Made by a program: the position numbers and the translations under genes
Notes under the pieces: model-generated
The model's input: only the letters and a program-made list of their open reading frames with translations
Told to the model about the DNA's origin: nothing
Databases searched by the model: none
NCBI GenBank assembly: GCA_030141605.1
Contig: JAQGDQ010000319.1
Location: forward strand, 124,001-188,000
From: Tubiluchus corallicola
Lineage: Eukaryota; Priapulida; Priapulimorpha; Priapulimorphida; Tubiluchidae
Length of the DNA stretch: 64,000 bases
Direction: 5' to 3'
In this document: piece by piece, positions 3,301 to 63,227 of the stretch
Layout: each line of letters opens with the position of its first letter
How positions within the stretch are numbered: position 1 is the first letter of the stretch

Positions 3301-6300
3301 ATATAAATAATTCAAGGTTAACCTAATCTAAAATTACAGCCTGAACGACTCTATATAGATTTGCAAAAGTTGTAGGAACCGGAATAAACTAGTTTGCAAT
3401 ACTGTAAATGAAAAGTCTAGCAGCAGAGTAGAACTCAATCACGGGAATCCGCGACATCCTTTAACCCTAGGATATCGCAGTCAGGATCCGTTGTAACATT
3501 TCAGTCGCTGATTTCTCACATACATTAAAATACATTACAGTAACATTTGTTAATTTTGTGAAGTAATGTCAAGATGCGAACATTCTCTGATGTGAAGTAT
3601 CACGGTACCAGTGTTCATACATTCCAGCGTATAATGAAGGATTATTTCTTTACATATTCGTATTGTAGACGACTCTTTAGCGACATCTCCCAAAAACATA
3701 TCGTAAGTATAGGTCCACCCTAAAAATTTCATCTTAAAATCGCTTCCTAAAAATTCGTCTTGTACATAAGTATATACGATAATTTTTAACATTTGATAGA
3801 AGAAACCCTTTTTCCATTACACAGGTATTATTTGGGATTAAGCCGTCAACCAACACTGCTACTTGTCGGGTTGCTAGGCCCTATGAGCATGTCTAGGTAG
3901 AAATCTATGCCAAATTAGTTACTTTGAACTGATCTTTGAGACTATCATTTGGGAAAGTCCTTTACACGTGTTTTTTATCAAGCTGTTTTAGAGGCAACAG
4001 TTACATGCTGATTCATTTTACGTGCGTAAACCGATTGTTACATTTGTACAGGAGTCTGGTAAGCGTTCTCAGCTATGGCGCATGACTAGCACGGGCATGT
4101 TGGAACACGAAGGTACGAGTACGCCACACGATCCCGGTAAAAAGAACGACGCTAACAGCAAACTAGTGCTGGATATTGACAATTCCGCACCGCAGCCGGA
4201 CCGCTACTCCAAGTTGATACTTCGCATGAAGGACAAGCGACGAACGCTAACGCAGACGTGGCATTTTACCGAGGTGTGTGTCTAACTAATGTTAACTATA
4301 GTGATAAAGTATGCGTAGAAATATGTAAAAAGTATAAAATAGAAGTGCAGTTGTATGTAAGTAAACCGTCGTACCTCAAATCTCAATAACTTCTTAATCC
4401 CTTTTCGAAATGCGGCATCATCTAAGAATTGTGACATCGCAGTGAATGCCTGTTTCTGTCAGCCGAGTTAGACACCATTTCAGTACCTTTCCTGTAAAAT
4501 ATTGTTTAAAGAGACATTTGACTTTTGTCAAACAAGTTATAACATAAGAGTTTGTGGTGTTTAGAGATTCTGTAATGAGACACAACAAACGTAGTTTTGT
4601 TAGGATGTAGTATTTTTAGGATTAATGTATGTTGGCTTAAACGTAGCTTGTTTTTCTAGAATTGTTAGTTTTGCAATGTATGCATTGCAGCCAACAATTA
4701 TATTAATAAACGACATTTTAAACAATCACTGATTTAGATCTTTATTTATCTCAAAGATAATTTCTCTTGTTGTGAAGCCAACTTGTTTTTCACCTGTTCA
4801 GACTTTAGTATGAAAGAACTGATGTTACTGGCTTTCAGTTAAAAAATTAAGCCAGAGATCATTTAAAATGTCTTTTTCTTCTGCAATTTTTCTGATGAAA
4901 TCTCTGTCGAAGCTGTGACCAGAAGGGGAAGCCCTTACAAACAGCCCAAGTGATTTGTTCTAATGCTTTACATTTTGCCAAATGCCACTTCACACTTTAC
5001 GTTCCCATTTCCTAAACTGAGAAACTTATCTGTAAGAGCAGGGATGGCTCAGACAATTAATTGTTAACCTGTTTTTGCTCTGTGAACTGTATGCTTGGTA
5101 GACACGTGGAGAATAACTTACATTATTTTTTTGATTTATAGTATTCTAGTGCTGGAATTGAACCCACAACTTTCTGCATAGAAAGCAAACAAATTATATA
5201 GTATTATTACAATGGCGTAGAGATTGATACCTTTCAGACGTCGTTTAGCAAATTTTAGTTGACTGAGATTATATTATTGCAGCTGTAAACTTTCTTACTT
5301 AACTCCAGTCTAATCATATTTACAGGATGGAAGGCTTTGTTGTCCCCAGGTTCGTGGTTTGTTCGTTCAAATTCAGTCTGGATACTTGCGCAAAGGTAAG
5401 CGTCTTTATTCTTTCTTATGCCACCGTAAAATGTAATTATGAGAAGATATTTTTTGTTGGCATCCTTCTGTCTTGGAAGACACTGGAGTGTGCGCTAAGA
5501 GAGTCAGTTATTGATCACATTGATGGAGGTGCAGCGTCGACTGTGGCTGAGCAGTGCTATCCTTAAACGTCTCCAGGGCGCACGCCTGGGCAAGGTGTAT
5601 GGATATCCTGAATTGCCCAGACAACAGGACCCCCTCTCTTCCTCCCTGGTGTAGTCCAAAGGAAAGCGGAGCGATACGTTTGGCACCAGGTTGGCTGCAG
5701 GAGCTGCCGGAGCTGCCGGAGTTAGTGAGCATGCTGCACTGGTCCGTCTTTGGGGCTCCACTCCTGATTTGAAAGGTTTACTCCTCTACACATGGCTGTT
5801 GGGTCACTTGACCCATTGAATCATTTTGATCGCTTGAGCAACATTGATTCGTCTTGATCACTTGAGCAACATTGAATCATCTTGATCACTTGAGCAACAT
5901 TGAATCGCCTTGATCACTTGAGCAACATTGAATCGCCTTGATCACTTGAGCAACATTGAATCATCTTGATCACTTGACTGTTTTCTCTCTAGGTGCAGAT
6001 GTTTTGTTTGGACCTTCACAATCTGTAACCCACGGTTACATTGATGGCGTACCTATTGAACAAGGAATCGTACGTCAGAAGTTGAGACCGGGATCTGGCA
6101 TGTTGGCAGTCAAGGTCGTTCCGGATGGACCGACTCGAGTCTTGCAGATCATTGATCAATTGCAAAAGGTGAAAAATTTAAAAAAACTTCGTGTTAAAAG
6201 CAAAACAATAACAAACTATCAGCTACTTAGTATAAATCAATTTTTTCCGTGAAGTTTCTTCTTTGTGAAACTTTTTGTCACCTACCTGAAAACTACATTC

Positions 6301-9300
6301 ACACTCAATTAAAAAACAATGTCAACGGATACCTTCCTTCAGTTTGTACAAAGTGCTTCAAAAAAGGCCAGTCAAGGTAAAGAACTTCAGTAAAAAGGTG
6401 AAGCGATGGACAGAAACAGCATGAAATATTGCCAATGTTAATTTTATTTTATAATTTGCACAGACTTTGCACCTTCAGCACAAAGCGGACTGGATTCTTG
6501 TTGAAGAATCAAAATTGGGAGCTTTGCAGCCAGTGGATCAGAGTGGGCAAGTGCAAGAACCTCCAAAGAAAGATTTACAGGTGACGAAATCTGGTTACTC
6601 TCTCATAGGCAGCAGAGTTTTATGTTTACATGGGAGGGAAGTGTGTTAAAATTTCAGAGTTTTTAATAATTCTGGCTTAGCATAAACACGTTTGACAATT
6701 CTTTGAGATACGGTTTCTCTTGCTGATGCTGTTGTAGCGTTGTGATCAATATCGTTCAACTTTTCATAGATTTACATCAAACTCTCCGGAGGTCTGGGCA
6801 TCTCTTTGGTCAATCATTTATCTGAGGAACTTTGTTACACGTCTCTCTCGGACATCTTACTGGAGTACACGGTCAGCAGTAAAGGTACTACGGTTGACGG
6901 AAGCATTCGAGACATTCAGGTTCGTTCTTACATTAATTTTATCTACACCTGTGAAAGTCATGTTTGAAGTTGTAGATCACTCACTTTGTAAAACAAGAAT
7001 AAACAACGATACTACATATTTCCACAAAACTGAAAAGTGTTTATTAGACTACACAGACATATGTAGAATGACTGCTACACTGAACACTGAGATCAAGAGT
7101 GTCCTGCACTGATCACTGAGAGTTAGATATTAAGTGACATGGGTGTCACGACTGCTGCACTGCACTGAGAGTGTGAGTTAGACAGTAACACGACTGCTGC
7201 ACTGCACTGAGAGTGAGACAGTTAGACAGTGACTAGAAAGTAAATCCAGTCAGTATATATACGTAGAGGTGATTATGCAAACTTGGCTTCACAAAAACCA
7301 TTACTGTAAAATAGGGAGAGATCCAGTGTATATGCATTCACTGGACCGTACAATTATACTGGGGGTGAGTTTAGCTAGTGAAATGTAAAAGGATTAGTTC
7401 ATAGATGGCAGCACCTAAAAAATATACAATTACAATTTCCACAACACTCTTGCATTATATGCATTCAGTTCTTGTGTAATTTCTTGAATGAATTTGAAAC
7501 AATATTTGATGTAAATTATTAATGTGTTTTTATCATTGCTGTCCCTAGTAGTATGGATATCATGCAATTTTGATCACGGGAGGTTATTTCCAGGTTATAG
7601 TCTTGTCGTGAATTACTTCGCGTTTGATTAACTTGACTTGTGAATATTGCATCGTTTGTCTTCTTGCTCGTCTCTCTTTCATAAATTCTTCATCTCATTC
7701 CCTCCCTTTTTTAGGCTTGTTATAACAGTGAAATAGCTTAAATATCCCTCTAATCTTACTGTACTTATTTGCTTCTGAATGACCTTTTACATTAATAGTG
7801 TTCTAGTTTTCTGTATTTAAGCTGTGTAAGTCAGGTCTACCTTGAACATTTAGACCTGTGGGCTAGTCAGCTTAATGTTCCGCTGTGTTTTAGTATAGTA
7901 GTATTTTAGTATTGATAATAATTGATTCTGTGATTATACCTGCTAGTATAGTTATTATAATATGATTCTTCGTGGCGTGTTAATGATTGTGTTGTTTGAT
8001 TCCTTGATTGTAAAAGCTAACAGGCTTAATGATTGTGGGCAAACTTTAATTCAGTATCAGCTCTCCCCCCTATTTTCTTGCCACAAGTCTGTTATTTAGA
8101 CACTGTATAACTCTGCTTAAAGTTTGTTCAATTACACTTCCAAGTTACTATTTAAAAGCAAATTGAATGTTTTTGTAAAAAATTTGTGTGTTTATTTAGA
8201 GGATTGTTCAGCTGAAGTTTGAAAACTTTTGCATAAAACTGTTCTATAGTAATACTTCAAACTTCTAACATGGTTTTTCACCCAACAAATAACAAATACA
8301 AATTTACAACATAGTTGAAGAAAAAACAACACGAAAAATTAGTACATTTAAACTATGAATAGTAAACCTGTGTGGCTGAGGAGACCTAAAAACAGCAAAA
8401 CAGCCACATAAATTAAAGGCCACCTCAGGAAGAAATGGAAAAGGAGAAAGAGAGGAATGGATGAAAACAACAACAGAGAAACAGACAGGCGGATGTCAAT
8501 GTGAAAATCTGTGTTGTACCAAACAACGACAACAATAATAAAATAATAATAAAGTCATTCTCACCATTAATAAATTTTAAAGCTGAATTGACATGAAATT
8601 TGTGTCAACTCACACATAGTGCCATAAAGAGAATTGACATGAAATTTGTGTCAACTCACATATAGTGCCATAAAGAGAATTGACACGAAATTTGTGTCAA
8701 CTCACACATAGTGCCATAAAGAGAATTGACACGAAATTTGTGTCAACTCACACATAGTGCCATAAAGAGAATTGACATGAAATTTGTGTCAACTCACACA
8801 TAGTGCCATAAAGAGAATTGACATGAAATTTGTGTCAACGCACACATAGTGCCATAAAGAGAATTGACACGAAATTTGTGTCAACTCACACATAGTGCCA
8901 TAAAGAGAATTGACACGAAATTTGTGTCAACTCACACATAGTGCCATAAAGAGAATTGACACGAAATTTGTGTCAACTCACACATAGTGCCACAAAGAGA
9001 ATTGACACGAAATTTGTGTCAACTCACACATAGTGCCATAAAGAGAATCGACACGAAATTTGTGTCAACTCACACATAGTGCCATAAAGAGAATCGACAC
9101 GAAATTTGTGTCAACTCACACATAGTGCCACAAAGAGAATCGACACGAAATTTGTGTCAACTCACACATAGTGCCACAAAGAGAATTGACACGAAATTTG
9201 TGTCAACTCACACATAGTGCCATAAAGAGAATTGACATGAAATTTGTGTCAACTCACACATAGTGCCATAAAGAGAATTGACACGAAATTTGTGTCAACT

Positions 9301-12300
9301 CACACATAGTGCCATAAAGAGAATTGACACGAAATTTGTGTCAACTCACACATAGTGCCATAAAGAGAATTGACATGAAATTTGTGTCAACTCACATATA
9401 GTGCCATAAAGAGAATTGACATGAAATTTGTGTCAACTCACACATAGTGCCATAAAGAGAATTGACATGAAATTTGTGTCAACTCACACATAGTGCCATA
9501 AAGAGAATTGACATGAAATTTGTGTCAACTCACACATAGTGTCATAAAGACAGCATATGTAACAATTACGTATGTGACAAAAATCATTGTTGATATTGAT
9601 GAAAAACAGAAGTGACTAGACACAGAACAGAAGTGAGTAGACACAGAACAGAAGTGAGTAGACACAGAACAGAAGTGAGTAGACACAGAACAGAAGTGAG
9701 TAGACACAGAACAGAAGTAAGTAGACACAGAACAGAAGTGTGTAGACACAGAACAGAAGTGAGTAGACACAGAACAGAAGTGAGTAGACACAGAACAGAA
9801 GTGACTAGACACAGAACAGAAGTGAGTAGACACAGAACAGAAGTGAGGGGACACAGAACAGAAGTGAGTAGACACAGAACAGAAGTGAGTAGACACAGAA
9901 CAGAAGTGTGAAGACACAGAACAGAAGTGAGTAGACACAGAACAGAAGTGAGTAGACACAGAACAGAAGTGAGTAGACACAGAACAGAAGTTTTTCTGAA
10001 CAGACGTTTGAGTGTACGTATTATAAACACTGATATCTTCTCTAGGTTGATAATCAACTTCTTGGCGTACAAGAACCTGTCATGTTGCATCTCACGCCTC
10101 CCCCGGACAAGACAGACATGATACAGGGGCTACCGGCACTACGGCTCATTACTCATATGATTCCTAGTCAGCCGAAACTGAATGCTAGCATATATCAGGT
10201 ATTAGCTGTACATGTACATCTGATCTTGCTAATGTAAAATATTCTTGTCCTAAGATGTCTTTAGTGTTTTTTTAATCGTCGGCTACCGGGAATACTTCAC
10301 GATCACGTGAATACTAGCAATGTGGTGTAGTCGCACTGATGCATACTTGCGGAAGAAATGCTACTCACTAAACCTATACCATGTCTTTGCCTACTTTGCA
10401 TTGGAGAAAGCTGTATTAAGTTTACGTAATGAAAAATTGTAAGATGAAAAATCATCATGTAACTTCTAACAATGGTGCAGACCCTGGGTGTTGCCATGGT
10501 GACTGAGTGACTTTTTGTCAGCCATGCAAGTATAATTGTGTCGTTTGCAGTCGTATGTAGTTCAGAATTTTTTTACTACAAGTACCTAAAAACTGATTAG
10601 TTCTGCTGCAGTACCATTAAATTCAAAGTTTAGTGCTCTTTCTGTTTTTGTGCTTAACATGGCTGATTTTCAGTACTTCATCATGCAAGTTCGACCGATG
10701 ACCTTAAAGCTGGAAGAGAGAATTCTCTGGAAACTGTTTCAGTTCTTTGGAATTTATCAGTCTGATGCTGATTCAGAAAATTTGGATGAGACAGACTTTG
10801 ATACACAAAGGTATTGATAAACAACGTGAATGTTAACACGTAAATTTCGTGCATTGGTAAACAACTTGAATGTTAACATGTAAATTTCACGCATTGGTAA
10901 ACAGCATGAATGTTAACACAAACTTTTCTTGTATTGGTAAACAACATGAACGTTCACACATAAGTTCATACACAAAGGTATTGATAAACAACGTGAATGT
11001 TAACACGTAATTTTCATGCATTGGTAAACAGCGTGAATATTAACACATAATTTTCATGCATTGATAAACAGCATGAATGTTAACACGTAATTTTCATGCA
11101 TTGGTAAACGGCATGAACGTTAACACGTAATTTTCATGCATTGGTAAACGGCATGAATGTTAACACGTAATTTTCATGCATTGGTAAACGACATGAATGT
11201 TAACACGTAATTTTCATGCATTGGTAAACGGCATGAATGTTAACACGTAATTTTCATGCATTGGTAAGCAGCATGAATGTTAACACGTAAATTTCGTGCA
11301 TTGGTAAACAACGTGAATGTTAACATGTAAATTTCACGCATTGGTAAACAGCATGAATGTTAACACAAACTTTTCTTGTATTGGTAAACAGCATGAATGT
11401 TAACACGTAAATTTCACGCATTGGTAAACAGCATGAATGTTAACACGAACTTTTCTTGTCTTGGTAAACGGCATGAATGTTAGCAGGTAATTTTCATGCA
11501 TTGGTAAACGGCATGAATGTTAACACGTAATTTTCATGCATTTGTAAACGGCATGAATGTTAACACGTAATTTTCATGCATTGGTAAACGGCATGAATGT
11601 TAACACGTAATTTTCATGCATTGGTAAACGGCATGAATGTTAACACGTAATTTTCATGCATTGGTAAGCAGCATGAATGTTAACACGTAAATTTCGTGCA
11701 TTGGTAAACAACGTGAATGTTAACATGTAAATTTCACGCATTGGTAAACAGCATGAATGTTAACACAAACTTTTCTTGTATTGGTAAACAGCATGAATGT
11801 TAACACGTAAATTTCACGCATTGGTAAACAGCATGAATGTTAACACGAACTTTTCTTGTCTTGGTAAACAGCATGAACGTTCACACATAAGTTCATACAC
11901 AAAGGTATTGATAAACAACGTGAATGTTAACACGTAATTTTCATGCATTGGTAAACAGCGTGAATGTTAACACATAATTTTCATGCATTGATAAACAGCA
12001 TGAATGTTAACACGTAATTTTCATGCATTGGTAAACGGCATGAATGTTAGCAGGTAATTTTCATGCATTGGTAAACGGCATGAATGTTAACACGTAATTT
12101 TCATGCATTGGTAAACGGCATGAATGTTAACACGTAATTTTCATGCATTGGTAAACGGCATGAATGTTAACACGTAATTTTCATGCATTGGTAAACAGCA
12201 TGAATGTTAACACGTAATTTTCGTGCATTGGTAAACAGCGTGAATGTTAACACGTAAATTTCGTGCATTGGTAAACAACGTGAATGTTAACACGTAATTT

Positions 12301-15300
12301 TAATGCATTGGTAAACAGCATGAATGTTAGCACGTAAATTTCATGCATTGGTAAACAGCATGAATGTTAACACGTAAATTTCATGCATTGGTAAACAGCA
12401 TGAATGTTAACACGTAAATTTCACGCATTGGTAAACAGCATGAATGTTAACACCTAAATTTCACGGATTGGTAAACAGCATGAATGTTAACACGTAATTT
12501 TAATGCATTGGTAAACAGCATGAATGTTAACACGTAATTTTCATGCATTGGTAAACAGCATGAATGTTAACACGTAATTTTCATGCATTGGTAAACAGCA
12601 TGAATGTTAACATGTAATTTTCATGCATTGGTAAACAGCATGAATGTTAACACATAATTTTCATGCATTGATAAACAGCATGAATGTTAACACGTAAATT
12701 TCACGCATTGATAAACAGCATGAATGTTAACACATAATTTTCATGCATTGATAAACAGCATGAATGTTAACACGCAATTTTCATGCATTGATAAACAGCA
12801 TGAATGTTAACATTTGAAATTCACATATAAAGGCATTGAATGTTTTGTGTGTTCATGCTTAGCATATTTAACATTCATAAGTTCATTACAAAGTGTCTCG
12901 ATCCATTCTTGATCTGCGCTTCATTATTCTGTAGTGTGAACAAGCCTTAAATTTATTCTTTTATATCATTTCAGAGCCGTAACGGCTGCAACGTCTGTTC
13001 AAAATAAGCGCTATTATTTCGGCAATCTGGAACTGCGCATGCAACATCTCAAACTGAGCATTATGACGGCTAGTAAGCTACCGATCGACCTCAAAGCAAT
13101 AAAACATCGTGCTGGAATTCCATTGGTCAGATTCGAAGAGGTTGATGTTAATTTGGATCCGTTTGTTTGTGGACATCAGTTTGAGACGAGTGCATTCTTG
13201 TGGGATGCGATACTGAAGCATTACGTACAGGTCCGCAATTGATTTAAATTTCTACTGGAAGTCAGTTTAACTTCATTGTGTTGGGGTCATAGGGAGGGGG
13301 GGCATATTTTAACTTAATTCAAATGAAGTTTCTTTTGGAATGTAAGTGCCATCACCTTTTCAAGAAAGAGATTTCTGCGAAAGTCATGTTTGAAGTTGTA
13401 GATAACTCACTTTGTAGAACCAGAATAAACAACTATACTACATATTTGCACAAAACTGAAAAGTATTTATTAGACTACACACACATATGTAGAATGACTG
13501 CTACACTGAACACTGAGAACAAGAGTGTCATGCACTGATCACTGAGAGTTAGACAGTAAGTAACATGAGTGTCACGACTGCTGCACTACACTGCACTGAG
13601 AGTGTGAGTTAGACAGGTGTGTAGCACGACTGCTGCACTGCACTGAAAGTGTGAGTTAGACAGTAACATGAGTAGAACGACTTCTGCACTGCATTGAGAG
13701 TTAGACAGTGACTAGAAAGTAAATCCAGTCAGTATATATAGGTAGAGGTAACTATGCAAACTAGGCTTCACAAAAACCATTACTGTAAAATAGGGAGAGA
13801 TCCAGTGAATATGCATTCACTGGACCGTACAATTATACTGGGGGTGAGTTTAGCTAGTAAAATGTAAAAGGATTAGTTCATAGATGGCAGCACCTAAAAA
13901 AATATACAATTACAATTTCCACAACTTTGTTGTTTGTCCCCAACAAATGTTATAGAATGGCCAATGGTGTTTTAATGCTTGCATTTTGTAACCCAGTTCT
14001 GTAATTTTTGTGATTTAATAAGTGAGAAGCTGAACAGGACGTGGTCAAATCTGATTATTGATTATTTATTGATTGTTTTAGGAACTGAAAAGTCAAGCTG
14101 CTAAGATTCTGGTGTCCGTGGATTTCCTGGGAAATCCACTCGGTTTTTTCAACGATGTTACAGAGGGTCTGACTGGATTAATTAGTGAAGGCGACGTCGG
14201 TGGACTGCTGAAAAATTTCACGCATGGAGTTTCCAACTCCGCTGCAAAGGTATCCCATGTTTGTAACTCCGCTGCAAAGGTATCCCATGTTTCCAACTCC
14301 TCTGCACAGTTATCCCACGTTTGTAACTCTGCTGCAAAGGTATCCCATGTTTCCAACTCGGTTGCAAAGTTATCCCATGTTTGTAACTCCGGTGCAAAGG
14401 TATATCATGTTTCCAACTCTGCGGCAAAGGTATCCCATGTTTGTAACTCCACTGCAAAGGTATCCCATGTTTCCAACTCTGCTGCAATGGTATCCCATGT
14501 TTGTAACTCCACTGCAAAGGTATCCCAATGTTTCGAACTCTGCTGCAAAGGTATCCCATGTTTGTAACTCTACTGCAAAGGTATCCCATGTTTCCACCTC
14601 CGCTGCAAAGGTATCCCATGTTTGTAACTCTGCTGCGAAGGTATCCCATGTTTCCAACTCCGCTGCAGAGGTATCCCATGTTTCCAACTCTGCTGTTCAT
14701 AAGTAACGAGTCATATTCGGTCACTCGTTGATGTGATGTGATGTGATATTTAATTCCACTTCAAACAACATAAATAAGCTTCCTGAGCTGTGCAGTCTTC
14801 TGCAGTGGTAGGTGACCTCTTCAAAACTCCACTGAGCTCAATTTCTGATGAGAAGGCTGTCATTCCGGGGGGATTTGTCCAGCTGGAGCAAGGTACAAGA
14901 GCAAAGGTTCTTGCACAGTCACTTTCACTGTCATTCAGCTGCAGCAAGGTACAAGAGCGAAGGTTCTTGCACAGTCACTTTCACTGTCATTCAGCTGCAG
15001 CAAGGTACAAGAGCGAAGGTTCTTGCACAGTCACTTTCACTGTCATTCAGCTGCAGCAAGGTACAAGAGCGAAGGTTCTTGCACAGTCACTTTCACTGTC
15101 ATTCAGCTGCAATAAGGTACAAGAGCGAAGGTTCTTGCACAGTCACTTTCACTGTCATTCAGCTGCAATAAGGTACAAGAGGGAAGGTTCTTGCACAGTC
15201 ACTTTCACTCTCATTCAGCTGCACAAGGTACAAGAGCGAAGGTTCTTGCACAGTCACTTTCACTTCTTCAGCTGCAGCAAGGTACAAGAGCGAAGGTTCT

Positions 15301-18300
15301 TGCACAGTCACTTTCACTGTCATTCAGCTGCAGCAAGGTACAAGAGCGAAGGTTCTTGCACAGTCACTTTCACTGTCATTCAGCTGCAGCAAGGTACAAG
15401 AGCGAAGGTTCTTGCACAGTCACTTTCACTCTCATTCAGCTGCAGCAAGGTACAAGAGCAAAGGTTCTTGCACAGTCACTTTCACTCTCATTCAGCTGCA
15501 GCAAGGTACAAGAGCGAAGGTTCTTGCACAGTCACTTTCACTCTCATTCAGCTGCAGCAAGGTACAAGAGGGAAGGTTCTTGCACAGTCACTTTCATTGT
15601 CATTCAGCTGCAGCAAGGTACAAGAGCGAAGGTTCTTGCACAGTCACTTTCATTGTCATTCAGCTGCAGCAAGGTACAAGAGCAAAGGTTCTTGCACAGT
15701 CACTTTCACTGTCATTCAGCTGCAGCAAGGTACAAGAGGGAAGGTTCTTGCACAGTCACTTTCACTCTCATTCAGCTGCAGCAAGGTACAAGAGCGAAGG
15801 TTCTTGCACAGTCACTTTCATTGTCATTCAGCTGCAGCAAGGTACAAGAGGGAAGGTTCTTGCACAGTCACTTTCACTCTCATTCAGCTGCAACAAGGTA
15901 CAAGAGCGAAGGTTCTTGCACAGTCACTTTCATTGTCATTCAGCTGCAGCAAGGTACAAGAGCGAAGGTTCTTGCACAGTCACTTTCACTGTCATTCAGC
16001 TGCAGCAAGGTACAAGAGCGAAGGTTCTTGCACAGTCACTTTCACTGTCATTCAGCTGCAGCAAGGTACAAGAGCAAAGGTTCTTGCACAGTCACTTTCA
16101 CTCTCATTCAGCTGCAACAAGGTACAAGAGCGAAGGTTCTTGCACAGTCACTTTCACTCTCATTCAGCTGCAGCAAGGTACAAGAGCGAAGGTTCTTGCA
16201 CAGTCACTTTCACTGTCATTCAGCTGCAGCAAGGTACAAGAGCAAAGGTTCTTGCACAGTCACTTTCATTGTCATTCAGCTGCAGCAAGGTACAAGAGCG
16301 AAGGTTCTTGCACAGTCACTTTCACTGTCATTCAGCTGCAGCAAGGTACAAGATTTTCATTCATTCAGCTGACAATAAGAGCGAAGGTTCTTGCACAGTC
16401 ACTTTCACTGTCATTCAGCTGCAAAGGTACAAGAGCGAAGGTTCTGCACAGTCACTTTCCTTCATTCAGCTGCAGCAAGGTACAAGAGCGAAGGTTCTTG
16501 CACAGTCACTTTCACTGTCATTCAGCTGCAGAAGGTACAAGAGCGAAGGTTCTTGCAGTCACTTTCACTGTCATTCAGCTGCAGCAAGGTACAAGAGCGA
16601 AGGTTCTTGCACAGTCACTTTCACTGTCATTCAGCTGCAGCAAGGTACAAGAGCGAAGGTTCTTGCACAGTCACTTTCACTGTCATTCAGCTGCAGCAAG
16701 GTACAAGAGCGAAGGTTCTTGCACAGTCACTTTCACTGTCATTCAGCTGCAGCAAGGTACAAGAGCGAAGGTTCTTGCACAGTCACTTTCACTGTCATTC
16801 AGCTGCAGCAAGGTACAAGAGCGAAGGTTCTTGCACAGTCACTTTCACTGTCATTCAGCTGCAGCAAGGTACAAGAGCGAAGGTTCTTGCACAGTCACTT
16901 TCACTGTCATTCAGCTGCAGCAAGGTACAAGAGCGAAGGTTCTTGCACAGTCACTTTCACTGTCATTCAGCTGCAGCAAGGTACAAGAGCGAAGGTTCTT
17001 GCACAGTCACTTTCACTGTCATTCAGCTGCAGCAAGGTACAAGAGCGAAGGTTCTTGCACAGTCACTTTCACTGTCATTCAGCTGCAATAAGGTACAAGA
17101 GCGAAGGTTCTTGCACAGTCACTTTCATTGTCATTCAGCTGCAGCAAGGTAAAGGCAAAGGTTCTTGCACAGTCACTTTCATTGTCATTCAGCTGCAGCA
17201 AGGTACAAGAGCGAAGGTTCTTGCACAGTCACTTTCACTGTCATTCAGCTGCAGCAAGGTACAAGAGCGAAGGTTCTTGCACAGTCACTTTCACTGTCAT
17301 TCAGCTGCAGCAAGGTACAAGAGCAAAGGTTCTTGCACAGTCACTTTCACTCTCATTCAGCTGCAACAAGGTACAAGAGCGAAGGTTCTTGCACAGTCAC
17401 TTTCACTCTCATTCAGCTGCAGCAAGGTACAAGAGCGAAGGTTCTTGCACAGTCACTTTCACTGTCATTCAGCTGCAGCAAGGTACAAGAGCGAAGGTTC
17501 TTGCACAGTCACTTTCACTGTCATTCAGCTGCAGCAAGGTACAAGAGCAAAGGTTCTTGCACAGTCACTTTCATTGTCATTCAGCTGCAGCAAGGTACAA
17601 GAGCGAAGGTTCTTGCACAGTCACTTTCACTGTCATTCAGCTGCAGCAAGGTACAAGAGCGAAGGTTCTTGCACAGTCACTTTCACTGTCATTCAGCTGC
17701 AATAAGGTACAAGAGCGAAGGTTCTTGCACAGTCACTTTCACTGTCATTCAGCTGCAATAAGGTACAAGAGGGAAGGTTCTTGCACAGTCACTTTCACTC
17801 TCATTCAGCTGCAGCAAGTTACAAGAGCGAAGGTTCTTGCACAGTCACTTTCACTGTCATTCAGCTGCAGCAAGGTACAAGAGCGAAGGTTCTTGCACAG
17901 TCACTTTCACTCTCATTCAGCTGCAGCAAGGTACAAGAGCGAAGGTTCTTGCACAGTCACTTTCATTGTCATTCAGCTGCAGCAAGGTACAAGAGCGAAG
18001 GTTCTTGCACAGTCACTTTCACTGTCATTCAGCTGCAGCAAGGTACAAGAGGGAAGGTTCTTGCACAGTCACTTTCACTGTCAGCTGCAGTAAGGTACAA
18101 GAGGGAAGGTTCTTGCACAGTCACTTTCACTCTCATTCAGCTGCAGCAAGGTACAAGAGCGAAGGTTTTTGCACATGTCCTATGTTAAACTTTCCATTAT
18201 TTGTGCTGGCATTTTTAACAATAAGTTTGTTGACTTTAGTTCACAGGTTCTCTAGGCGACATAATCGGTAAAGTGGCTATGGATGACAAGCATGCGGAAT

Positions 18301-21300
18301 TACGGGAAAACATACGTGCTCACAGCGGATCAGGTCGGGAACATTTACAGGCTGGCTTTAAAGGTAAATTCACATTTAAAACTCAGAGTATATCTATGAG
18401 CTTAGACCATAGAGAAAATTTATCTTGTAATTTGTGTATTTTACAATGCTTTGCTTTTTTAGCCATGCAGAAACTATTGAAGCATTTTGTCATAATTCGC
18501 TATCAACTGGTATTTTTTTGTAACGTTGCCTAAACTTGGTTGCTTATGGATTGCGTTATTTGAAGAAATTTGTTGAAAATTGTTTGTTTCATTTAGGTTT
18601 AGGTTACGGAATTCTTGGCGGTATCACCAGCGTGTTTACGCAACCTTACGAGGGAGCGTCTCGTGACGGAGTCGAGGTTTTTACACATTTTCATTTTTCT
18701 TTGAATATTTTTCTTTCAAGTATTTTATTAGGATTACCATTTTTTAAGATGTCCATGAATATTTCTTTATATCTATTAAAATTTCTTGAGGGAATTAAGA
18801 CATATTTTACATACACCTTTCCATCTGTTTATTTTTTGTGAAGTTCACGTATAAAATGGGCAGCTTTTTACCAGCCATATTACCAGCTGTAATCTAACAC
18901 GTTTTCCGGCCTTTCAGAATATTTTTAGCACCATTACATGCATTATATGAATTTTTATGGAACATTTTTATGAAACACACAAGTCATTATTTCATATTTA
19001 ATATTTGCAGTTGGGGAACACATGTTGAATGTCAATAGTCGATAATGTGTCACTACAGCTGAAAACCTTAAATTGTAGACAATTTCATTTGATTGGCATT
19101 TAAGTGGGTGATTGGATGCCGGCAAATTGGTTCTTGGCTGTTTCATCTGTCGTACTGCCTCGTTCACCGGTTCTTGGTTGTTTCATATGTCTTGCTGCCT
19201 CCCTCGCCGGTTCTTGGCTGTTTCATATATCTTTCTGCCTCGCTCGCCAGTTCTTGGCTGTTTCATATGTCTTTCTGCCTCGCTCGCCGGTTCTTGGCTG
19301 TTTCATATGTCTTGCTGCCTCCCTCACCGGTTCTTGGCTGTTTCATATGTCTTTCTGCCTCGCTCGCCGGTTCTTGACTGTTTTATGTGTGATATCTGTG
19401 ATTCCACTCACCTCGTCTCTCATTGAGGAAATATATGCATGTACTAGGTGCTAGTTCTGCCACAACCATCAAGAATATTAGACCTTTTGATGTGCACTGT
19501 ATATCAGCTTAATAAATGTAATATTTCCAAGTTTATATCTTTACTTTTAGGGATTAGTCAGTGGCATGGCAAAAGGTATTATTGGTGTCGTTGCTAAGCC
19601 TACCGCGGGTTTGTTAGACCTCGCTTCCGGTGCAACACATGCTGTCAGCAGAACTAGTCAGAAATCTGGCAAGCACAACTTTAAGGTACGTCTGTTCTTA
19701 GATATAATGTAATTATCTATCGTTTGTCGAGAACTACTTTTTTTGTTCGTTTCACACTTTCGGCGGGCAAAGAAATTATAAACGTAAAACTAAAAACGAA
19801 TCCGTCTTTCAATGTCAGTTGCCGTAAAAGCACTAGGAGTGTTTGCTTCCTGTACAAGGTGTAGGATCAACCTAGATGACATGTGGATATTTGACCGCAT
19901 TTAGACCATCTACGTCTTGTGTCACATCAAGTTGGCAGTGTTTTATATCTATCGTAACAGAATCATGTGCATACACTGTCACGTTAAGTTATTTTTTATT
20001 TAATTTGCATAAAGACAACGATTAGTTACCATCATGTTTTTGGTTTTGTCCCTGTTTACCCCATTTTGTAGCATATATATAAAGTAGAGTCGTAATTTTG
20101 TCATTTTAGAGAGTTCGACTACCCCGATGTTGTGCTACTCCTGGTGGACTACTGGAGAGTTACTCAAGAATTAGAGCAACAGATCAGCAATTTCTTCATG
20201 CTCTGAACAACAATAACTACAGTGAATTGTATGTATTGTGACTATGGTACTTATAACTAGATACAATAACTTCAGTGAATTGTATGTATTGTGACTATGG
20301 TACTTATAACTAGATACAATAACTTCAGTGAATTGTATGTATTGTGACTATGGTACTTTTAACTAGATACAATAACTTCAGTGAATTGTATGTATTGTGA
20401 CTATGGTACTTATAACTAGATACAATAACTTCAGTGAATTGTATGTATTGTGACTACGGTACTTATAACTAGATACAATAACTTCAGTGAATTGTATGTA
20501 TTGTGACTATGGTACTTATAACTAGATACAATAACTTCAGTGAATTGTATGTATTGTGACTATGGTACTTTTAACTAGATACAATAACTTCAGTGAATTG
20601 TATGTATTGTGACTACGGTACTTATAACTAGATGCAATAACTACAGTGAATTGTATGTATTGTGACTACGGTACTTATAACTAGATACAATAACTTCAGT
20701 GAATTGTATGTATTGTGACTACGGTACTTATAACTAGATACAATAACTACAGTGAATTGTATGTATTGTGACTACGGTACTTATAACTAGATACAATAAC
20801 TTCAGTGAATTGTATGTATTGTGACTACGGTACTTATAACTAGATACAATAACTACAGTGAATTGTATGTATTGTGACTACGGTACTTATAACTAGACAA
20901 CTTCAGTGAATTGTATGTATTGTGACTACGGTACTTATAACTAGATACAATAACTTCAGTGAATTGTATGTATTGTGACTACGGTACTTATAACTAGATA
21001 CAATAACTTCAGTGAATTGTATGTATTGTGACTACGGTACTTATAACTAGATACAATAACTTCAGTGAATTGTATGTATTGTGACTACGGTACTTATAAC
21101 TAGATACAATAACTTCAGTGAATTGTATGTATTGTGACTACGGTACTTATAACTAGATACAATAACTTCAGTGAATTGTATGTATTGTGACTACGGTACT
21201 TATAACTAGATACAATAACTTCAGTGAATTGTATGTATTGTGACTACGGTACTTATAACTAGATACAATAACTTCAGTGAATTGTATGTATTGTGACTAC

Positions 21301-24300
21301 GGTACTTATAACTAGATACAATAACTTCAGTGAATTGTATGTATTGTGACTACGGTACTTATAACTAGATACAATAACTTCAGTGAATTGTATGTATTGT
21401 GACTACGGTACTTATAACTAGATACAATAACTTCAGTGAATTGTATGTATTGTGACTACGGTACTTATAACTAGATACAATAACTTCAGTGAATTGTATG
21501 TATTGTGACTACGGTACTTATAACTAGATACAATAACTTCAGTGAATTGTATGTATTGTGACTACGGTACTTATAACTAGATACAGTAACTACAGTGAAT
21601 TGTATGTATTGTGACTACGGTACTTATAACTAGATACAATAACTACAGTGAATTGTATGTATTGTGACTACGGTACTTATAACTAGATACAATAACTACA
21701 GTGAATTGTATGTATTGTGACTACGGTACTTATAACTAGATACAATAACTTCAGTGAATTGTATGTATTGTGACTATGGTACTTTTAACTAGATACAATA
21801 ACTTCAGTGAATTGTATGTATTGTGACTACGGTACTTATAACTAGATGCAATAACTACAGTGAATTGTATGTATTGTGACTACGGTACTTATAACTAGAT
21901 ACAATAACTTCAGTGAATTGTATGTATTGTGACTATGGTACTTTTAACTAGATACAATAACTACACAAGTAGTTTAGTTCCCAGTGTGACGCATGAAGTA
22001 TCACTTTTGAAAGTACTTTTGGAAATATAATGTCATATACGGAAAATTTGGCTTCAATCTGTAGTATTTTCTACTATCAGCCTGTAAAATTTCAGTCTTT
22101 TAAACTGATGTTACCTCTTTGCTGAAATTTAACCTCATTTGCTGCCATTTTGTAATGTCACATGTTTGACAATCGTCCTCTGTCAACGAATCGGGAGTTG
22201 CCCTTCCAAGAAACTTTTCCACTTGCTGCCATTTTGTAATGTCACATGTTTGACAATCTTCCTCTGTCAATGAATCGGGAGTTGCCCTTCCAAGAAACTT
22301 CTCCGTTTGCTGCCATTTTGTAATGTCACATGTTTGACAATCTTCCTCTGTCAATGAATCGGGAGTTGCCCTTCCAAGAAACTTCTCCGTTTGCTGCCAT
22401 TTTGTAATGTCACATGTTTGACAATCTTCCTCTGTCAATGAATCGGGAGTTGCCCTTCCAAGAAACTTCTCCGTTTGCTGCCATTTTGTAATGTCACATG
22501 TTTGACAATCTTCCTCTGTCAATGAATCGGGAGTTGCCCTTCCAAGAAACTTTTCCACTTGCTGCCATTTTGTAATGTCACATGTTTGACAATCTTCCTC
22601 TGTCAATGAATCGGGAGTTGCCCTTCCAAGAAACTTTTCCACTTGCTGCCATTTTGTAATGTCACATGTTTGACAATCTTCCTCTGTCAATGAATCGGGA
22701 GTTGCCCTTCCAAGAAACTTTTCCACTTGCTGCCATTTTATAATGTCACATGTTTGACAATCTTCCTCTATCAACGAATCGGGAGTTGCCCTTCCAAGAA
22801 ACTTCTCCGTTAGCTGGCATTTTATAATGTCACATGTTTGACAATCTTCCTCTATCAATGAATCGGGAGTTGCCCTTCCAAGAAACTTCTCCCTTTGCTG
22901 CCATTTTGTAATGTCACATGTTTGACAATCTTCCTCTATCAACGAATCGGGAGTTGCTCTCCCAAGAAACTTCTCCATTTGCTGCCATTTTGTAATGTCA
23001 CATGTTTGACAATCTACCTCTGTCAATGAATCGGGAGTTGCCCTTCCAAGAAACTTCTCCGTTTGCTGCCATTTTGTAATGTCACATGTTAGACAATCTT
23101 CCTCTATCAATGAATCGGGAGTTGCTCTACCAAGAAACTTCTTTTTGATACGGTTCCAGATGACAAGACCGGACACTTTTTCTGAAACATGTCATCATTG
23201 GTGCTGTTCCTGGATATTTTAGAAAACTCGCTTACTGTCGGTTTTAAAATGACAAGATCTGGTTTGGTGTTTTTTCAAAATTATCTCAAGAACAACGACA
23301 GAATGGTGAGCTCATAGGTGCAGCCAGGGTCAGACCTGGGTAAAAATAGTTGTTGTTTTTTTGCATCACTCTCTTTAACTGTCTTTTAGCTTTGATTATT
23401 TTTGAGTCTTGTTACATCATTGCTTATTTATTGTTTTTTACAATAATCAATTAGTCTTAATTTGGGTCCTCTGTTAACGTAGATAATTCTCATGATTTCT
23501 AATTCACTCCTTAGGTTGATAGCTTATGAGGAATTTGGTGGACAGTCGAGGCAAGTTCACTGTCTTGTGTCCAGTGAAATGGTTTACTTCATACACGGCA
23601 ATCAGCAGGTGCCCGATGTGTTCTTAAAAGTGCCGTTATCGCAGTTGAAACATTGTAATCCCGTGTCGGTGAAACAGCGCGGCGGCTCTTACAAATACTA
23701 CATCAGTAAGTTTATTACTTTGTGTTCATTTTCGTTAATTGGCACACTGGTTGTTTGAGCATTCGACGTTACCTTGGTGACAATTGTAAAACGTTTTGCT
23801 ATCTGTTAACTAGAAACAGTAAAACGGTGTCCGAGCTGATACGTGTAGTTACTGTATGTTTGTCATTTGGTCTTGGTGGTCAGTGTTGCCTTAGATGAAG
23901 ATTGTAAGAGGCTTTATAGTTTATAATTGGAACCGGCAAGTTTTGGACAGGTCACCTCATCAGATTTAAAGTTTACAGCATTAGACATGTACTGTGGATG
24001 CGCCCAGTCCTGGCAAAGAAGCATGAAAAGATTACCATTGAATTGTGGGATAGACCTGAAATTTATTGAAATAACAGCCCAGTCCTAGCAAAGGAACATC
24101 AAAAGATTGCCATTGAATTGTGGGATAGACCTGAAATTTATTGAAATAACAGCCCAGTCCTGGCAAAGAAACATCAAAAGATTGCCATTGAATTGTGAGA
24201 TAGACCTGAAATTTATTGAAATAACAGCCCAGTCCTGGCAAAGAAACATGAAAAGATTGCCATTGAATTGTGGGATAGACCTGAAATTTATTGAAATAAC

Positions 24301-35533: not shown

Positions 35534-63227
<27,694 letters not shown>

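Follow-up and report, generated by a model that had tools for sequence, protein, structure and literature searches.

Minisatellite arrays, probably of the mirage kind, at splice junctions of VPS13D and ABAT in a probable ecdysozoan

Introduction

In amphioxus, minisatellite-like duplications extending over an exon–intron boundary, at either donors or acceptors, have been described in Adh3, the globin genes BflGb6 and BflGb9, troponin C and PGBD5. Such structures in the globin genes were named mirages, a term adopted from an earlier study of Adh3 (Canestro et al. 2002, cited in PMC3087553), and PGBD5 and troponin C were added as mirage genes (PMC3902484). Unit lengths range from 10–72 bp (Adh3) up to about 160 bp, AG or GT is kept in many of the copies, and the Adh3 data together with RT-PCR of globin transcripts suggest that regular splicing is undisturbed (PMC3087553, PMC3902484).

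Tandem repeats at splice sites are also known beyond lancelets, since 792 human introns have been found embedded in tandem repeats, with AGGT-containing units in UBC (PMC10809524). In UBC whole coding monomers are skipped, whereas the copies described below lie past the exon end, within the intron. In an intron gain of a potato RdRp gene, a duplication over an intron–exon boundary likewise copied the splice signals (PMC4974935), although here no new intron is present and the array lies inside an existing one. A literature search, which had most subscription journals outside its coverage, turned up no account, outside lancelets, of structures called mirages.

The original prediction for a 64-kb stretch of one contig (the window) held that a VPS13D donor site had been tandemly copied together with its exon end. 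This array (mirage 1) probably belongs to the kind known from amphioxus, in a lineage from which no earlier report was found. Two further examples lie nearby, one with more intact donors (mirage 2) and one at an acceptor (mirage 3). In contrast to the amphioxus cases, the genes affected are VPS13D and ABAT, the animal is one whose VPS13D groups with that of Priapulus, the copies number up to 33, and one array stays in frame across ten units.

Gene models and host

The exons were modelled by hand from splice signals and from VPS13D and ABAT motifs and were then checked. The 3' part of VPS13D occupies the plus strand with 13 modelled exons, from 95–324 to a stop at 26379, while ABAT (4-aminobutyrate aminotransferase) is encoded on the minus strand in 12 exons, from 63227 down to 35534. 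A 465-residue VPS13D piece, which leaves out the first three of the 13 exons, can be aligned to homologues over its length, the closest match being a partial model from Priapulus caudatus (58 % identity over 99 %). The sole Pfam match was VPS13_C, below the cut-off, and a sequence search of the PDB matched VPS13A and VPS13C. The ABAT matches reach at most 57 % identity among the 120 listed of 5400. The listed ABAT protein of Adineta steineri (P0001) carries its middle segment in duplicate, and its score in this search is probably too high for that reason.

A VPS13D tree of 10 rows joins the window sequence to that of Priapulus caudatus at 100/100. For ABAT, a tree of 35 rows, drawn with a midpoint root, puts it beside a set with arthropods as its named members, at 84/80, which is under the program's mark for firm support. 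The VPS13D sampling was thin, as proteins were admitted by length, with full-length VPS13D left out, and no lancelet protein was compared. On this thin sampling, the host is probably an ecdysozoan near priapulids. An amphioxus origin of the window, considered because mirages are known from there, gained no support from the VPS13D and ABAT matches and trees compared.

Three arrays across splice junctions

Tandem repeats occupy 23.9 kb of the window, and the 29 intronic arrays with a period greater than 9 take up 20.4 kb of its 50.5 kb of intron. Repeat units (TRF, period greater than 9) were scored against the 46 modelled junctions in both orientations, giving 5060 comparisons. Six rows, representing three arrays, scored 62–82 against junctions, while the highest score among the remaining comparisons was 24; these are the three junction-crossing arrays of the window (Table 1).

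Table 1. Coordinates of the exons, arrays and predicted donor discussed in the text
Feature	Position in window	Strand	Basis or remark
40-bp x 50 array, beginning at position +3 of the intron behind the VPS13D exon with its end at 10810	10813..12812	+	Adjoins the junction; unit without recognised exon sequence
VPS13D exon with copied last 21 bp	14082..14249	+	In-frame joining; ungapped SNSAAK/FTGSL in 9 of 9 homologues aligned
Mirage 1, 30-bp units	14229..14695	+	GT in 13 of 15 full units
Predicted working donor GTATCC, exon-proximal	14250..14255	+	Gene model, protein alignment
56-bp x 58.7 minisatellite, most of the remaining mirage 1 intron	14880..18175	+	Likeness to exon end at background level
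Next VPS13D exon (FTGSLGDIIG...)	18240..18363	+	Gene model, alignment; phase 0 junction
VPS13D exon RVRLPRCC...NNNNYSEL with copied last 19 bp	20110..20228	+	Gene model
Mirage 2, 33 units of 53 bp, all carrying the exon end and a GTATGT donor	20210..21962	+	TRF, unit and frame counts
ABAT exon with copied first 23 bp	40529..40677	-	Gene model
Mirage 3, 13 units of 32/33 bp, all carrying a TTTAG acceptor and the exon start	40655..41075	-	TRF, unit and frame counts

Mirage 1 is made up of 15 full units and one broken unit. The unit consists of GTTTCCAACTCCGCTGCAAAG (21 exon bases) followed by GTATCCCAT (nine intron bases, including the donor), and its source is the final 21 bp of the VPS13D exon and the initial 9 bp of its intron. 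C units and S units take turns along the array. TRF reported it both with a period of 30 (15.5 copies, score 645) and with a period of 60 (7.8 copies, 90 % matches, score 729), and these scores establish that the repetition is far above chance and that the C/S dimer, proposed from the alternation in the original prediction, is real. The gene, the donor at 14249/14250, the acceptor at 18240 and the frame had also been read correctly, as judged by the gene model with its phase 0 junction. The first unit is identical to the S-type consensus, and its exon part falls in a stretch, GVSNSAAK, that is conserved in the homologue alignment, which together indicate that copying proceeded from the exon into the array.

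As in a mirage, the unit of the array itself crosses the exon–intron boundary, and the copies carry splice signals: the site is intact in 13 of the 15 full units of mirage 1 (GT), in all 33 units of mirage 2 (GT) and in all 13 of mirage 3 (TTTAG). The description of mirage 1 as 30-bp units of exon end plus a GTATCC donor thus stands for the array but not for every unit, since GTATCC is carried by 12 of the 15; the units at 14289 and 14349 have TT, and that at 14379 has GTATAT. The mirage 3 units were located through the TTTAG motif, and their regular spacing of 32–33 bp, without a gap, indicates that none was missed.

Exon sequence was also sought in two neighbouring arrays of the VPS13D introns. 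For the 40-bp array starting at 10813 it was rejected, as the score of 21 is at background level and the array only adjoins the donor. An origin of the 56-bp array from the exon end was rejected as well, since the match with the highest score, GCTGCA(GC)AAGGTA, reached 18 against a background maximum of 24.

Several other repeats were noted in the course of the survey. Three arrays adjoin splice sites without crossing them (5814–5977, 10813–12812 and 43175–43344, with gaps of 15, 2 and 12 bp, respectively). A minus-strand open reading frame of 363 aa at 22100–23191 coincides with an 84-bp x 12 minisatellite within a VPS13D intron, and probably owes its open frame solely to 84 being a multiple of 3. 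Two short repeats in different introns, at 7147–7230 and 13589–13701, resemble each other in their units (CTGCTGCACTGCACTGAGAG) and may be fragments of a single dispersed element.

Assembly of tandem arrays is difficult, and the copy numbers may be in error. That the arrays or their copy numbers are assembly errors is nevertheless extremely improbable, as the units of mirage 1 have substitutions of their own within an ordered C/S dimer, and the pattern recurs at three separate loci beside exons that join in frame.

Reading frame and codon pattern

The original prediction stated that the frame of mirage 1 remains open for nine units beyond the first, until a 1-bp insertion near 14527. This was borne out: one additional A at 14527–14528 breaks the frame, and a stop comes after it. 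Donors of units 2–10 would therefore hold the frame, as had been claimed for the later donors, but only seven of these nine have GT, so that eight frame-keeping donors with GT are present, namely the original and seven copies. The donors of units 11–15 would not hold it.

These seven alternative donors are an argument for length-tunable alternative splicing, in which the later in-frame donors would sometimes be used, inserting multiples of ten residues into the C-terminal region of VPS13D. Five of the seven share the 9-mer of the first donor, and six of the seven equal it in predicted U1 pairing. The codon pattern does not favour this reading. Relative to their type consensus, units 2–10 carry 7 silent and 11 replacement changes, where the possible single changes are 24:66 and 22:68 (silent:replacement); the silent share is slightly over expectation, and four of the seven silent changes fall on the C of one CpG. 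The frame-broken units 11–15 have five silent and three replacement changes, and hence a silent share of 5 in 8 against 7 in 18 in units 2–10, both small numbers. There is no clear sign, in these small numbers, of coding constraint on the in-frame units.

The sister arrays show the same structure out of frame. Only the first donor holds the frame in mirage 2 (1 of 33) and only the exon-proximal acceptor in mirage 3 (1 of 13), so that the full reading frame would be lost with 32 of the 33 and 12 of the 13 site choices, respectively. Moreover, the best period is divisible by 3 in 9 of the 29 intronic arrays, as counted. Given the out-of-frame sister arrays and this proportion, the best account of the open frame in mirage 1 is that it arose by chance from the length of the unit. 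With no insert in the homologues aligned (see below), length-tunable splicing was left without support and is very unlikely.

Use of a copied site in mirages 2 and 3 would break the protein, yet their GT and TTTAG motifs are kept in every unit, an indication that the decoys are largely harmless. Homogenisation inside an array, whatever the site use, could alternatively keep the decoys intact.

Choice of splice site

The protein alignments at all three junctions agree with undisturbed regular splicing. No insert or gap across SNSAAK/FTGSL was present in any of the nine VPS13D homologues aligned (9 of 32 matches), and no insert was found at the mirage 2 junction in any of the seven that reach it (of the nine aligned), two of which vary in length a few residues upstream. 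Around the mirage 3 junction, none of the 40 ABAT homologues aligned (40 of the 120 listed) has a gap.

Published data on competing sites are available from human genes and minigenes (PMC9225289). Where the strength of human sites is near-equal and the flanking introns are long, preference goes to the pair of sites that lie nearest each other across the exon. In minigenes that had flanking introns of 365 nt and a strong donor present in two identical versions, splicing used the upstream donor only. This upstream preference is restricted to near-equal strength; in unfiltered human data the downstream donor is favoured in about 60 % of events. With weakened identical donors, smaller constructs kept the upstream donor and two larger ones skipped the exon, and the effect is weaker for acceptors. 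In the window, the introns flanking the exon of mirage 1 measure 851 and 3990 nt, those flanking the exon of mirage 2 measure 424 and 3286 nt, and those flanking the ABAT exon measure 2679 and 632 nt. The uninterrupted homologues aligned and the upstream preference of identical donors between long introns indicate that splicing at the window arrays probably takes place at the exon-proximal site.

Neither the predicted U1 pairing nor a rough matrix, by which the GTATAT copy outscores the first donor, gives the first donor a preference, so position and exon context, rather than strength, would have to select it, with weaker published support in the case of the acceptor array.

Most units of mirage 1 read AAG/GTATCC, and each AGGT might serve as a dual-specific site, with pieces of the array spliced together as in UBC, or the array might represent a step towards intron gain. 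For human UBC, AGGT sites of dual specificity have been reported within tandem repeats (PMC10809524), but the array lies inside an intron, so that such splicing would rarely be visible in mRNA, and, as judged by eye, no strong pyrimidine tract precedes AAAG. Both possibilities are highly improbable.

Mirage 1 is very probably a boundary minisatellite that is near-neutral and whose exon-proximal donor is used. This corresponds to the second of the two readings offered in the original prediction, a tolerated expansion with a single working donor, the first, and it is the better supported one in view of the uninterrupted homologues and the frame-breaking sister arrays. The array would have originated when a short segment that chanced to span the exon–intron junction was duplicated in tandem, in a stretch of the genome whose introns are dense in minisatellites. 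The duplication may have been nearly neutral because the original donor at 14249/14250 still borders a complete exon, while the later copies sit in the intron and would be removed with it. The units would then have expanded as a C/S dimer, drifting like intron sequence, and the spliceosome would recognise the real exon through the pairing of its own acceptor with the first donor. The anatomy of the array, the gene model, the copies with their intact sites, the frame consequences and the two sister arrays are observed; we infer that the array is neutral and that the first donor is used exclusively or almost exclusively.

Placement of arrays near junctions

Rather than being merely tolerated, minisatellites might be actively seeded at splice junctions. 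Of the 29 intronic arrays, seven cross a junction or come within 20 bp of one, against 2.9 expected (P 0.013) under a null that places each array at a random position within its intron, with 25 bp of exon allowed, and amphioxus has such arrays at several genes (PMC3087553, PMC3902484). On the other hand, the crossing arrays alone number three against 1.6 expected (P 0.21), and P varies with the settings, from 0.0004 to 0.12 for nearness and, where the null allows crossing, from 0.045 to 0.46 for crossing. Active seeding is, on balance, rather unlikely. A more elaborate possibility, in which an ecdysozoan lineage would seed junction minisatellites at a high rate and the chance in-frame ladder of donors at the exon of mirage 1 would leak low levels of longer proteins (by multiples of ten residues, with the length set by allele copy number), is very unlikely.

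Significance

The ecdysozoan placement of the host, if true, would extend mirages to ecdysozoans. Three boundary arrays in 64 kb provide natural competition tests, with 33 donor copies or 13 acceptor copies in a single pre-mRNA, and could show with what stringency the spliceosome selects the site next to the exon. Should the animal be related to priapulids, boundary arrays arise in genomes that are rich in minisatellites but far apart, and they may represent a general way in which introns grow and splice sites multiply.
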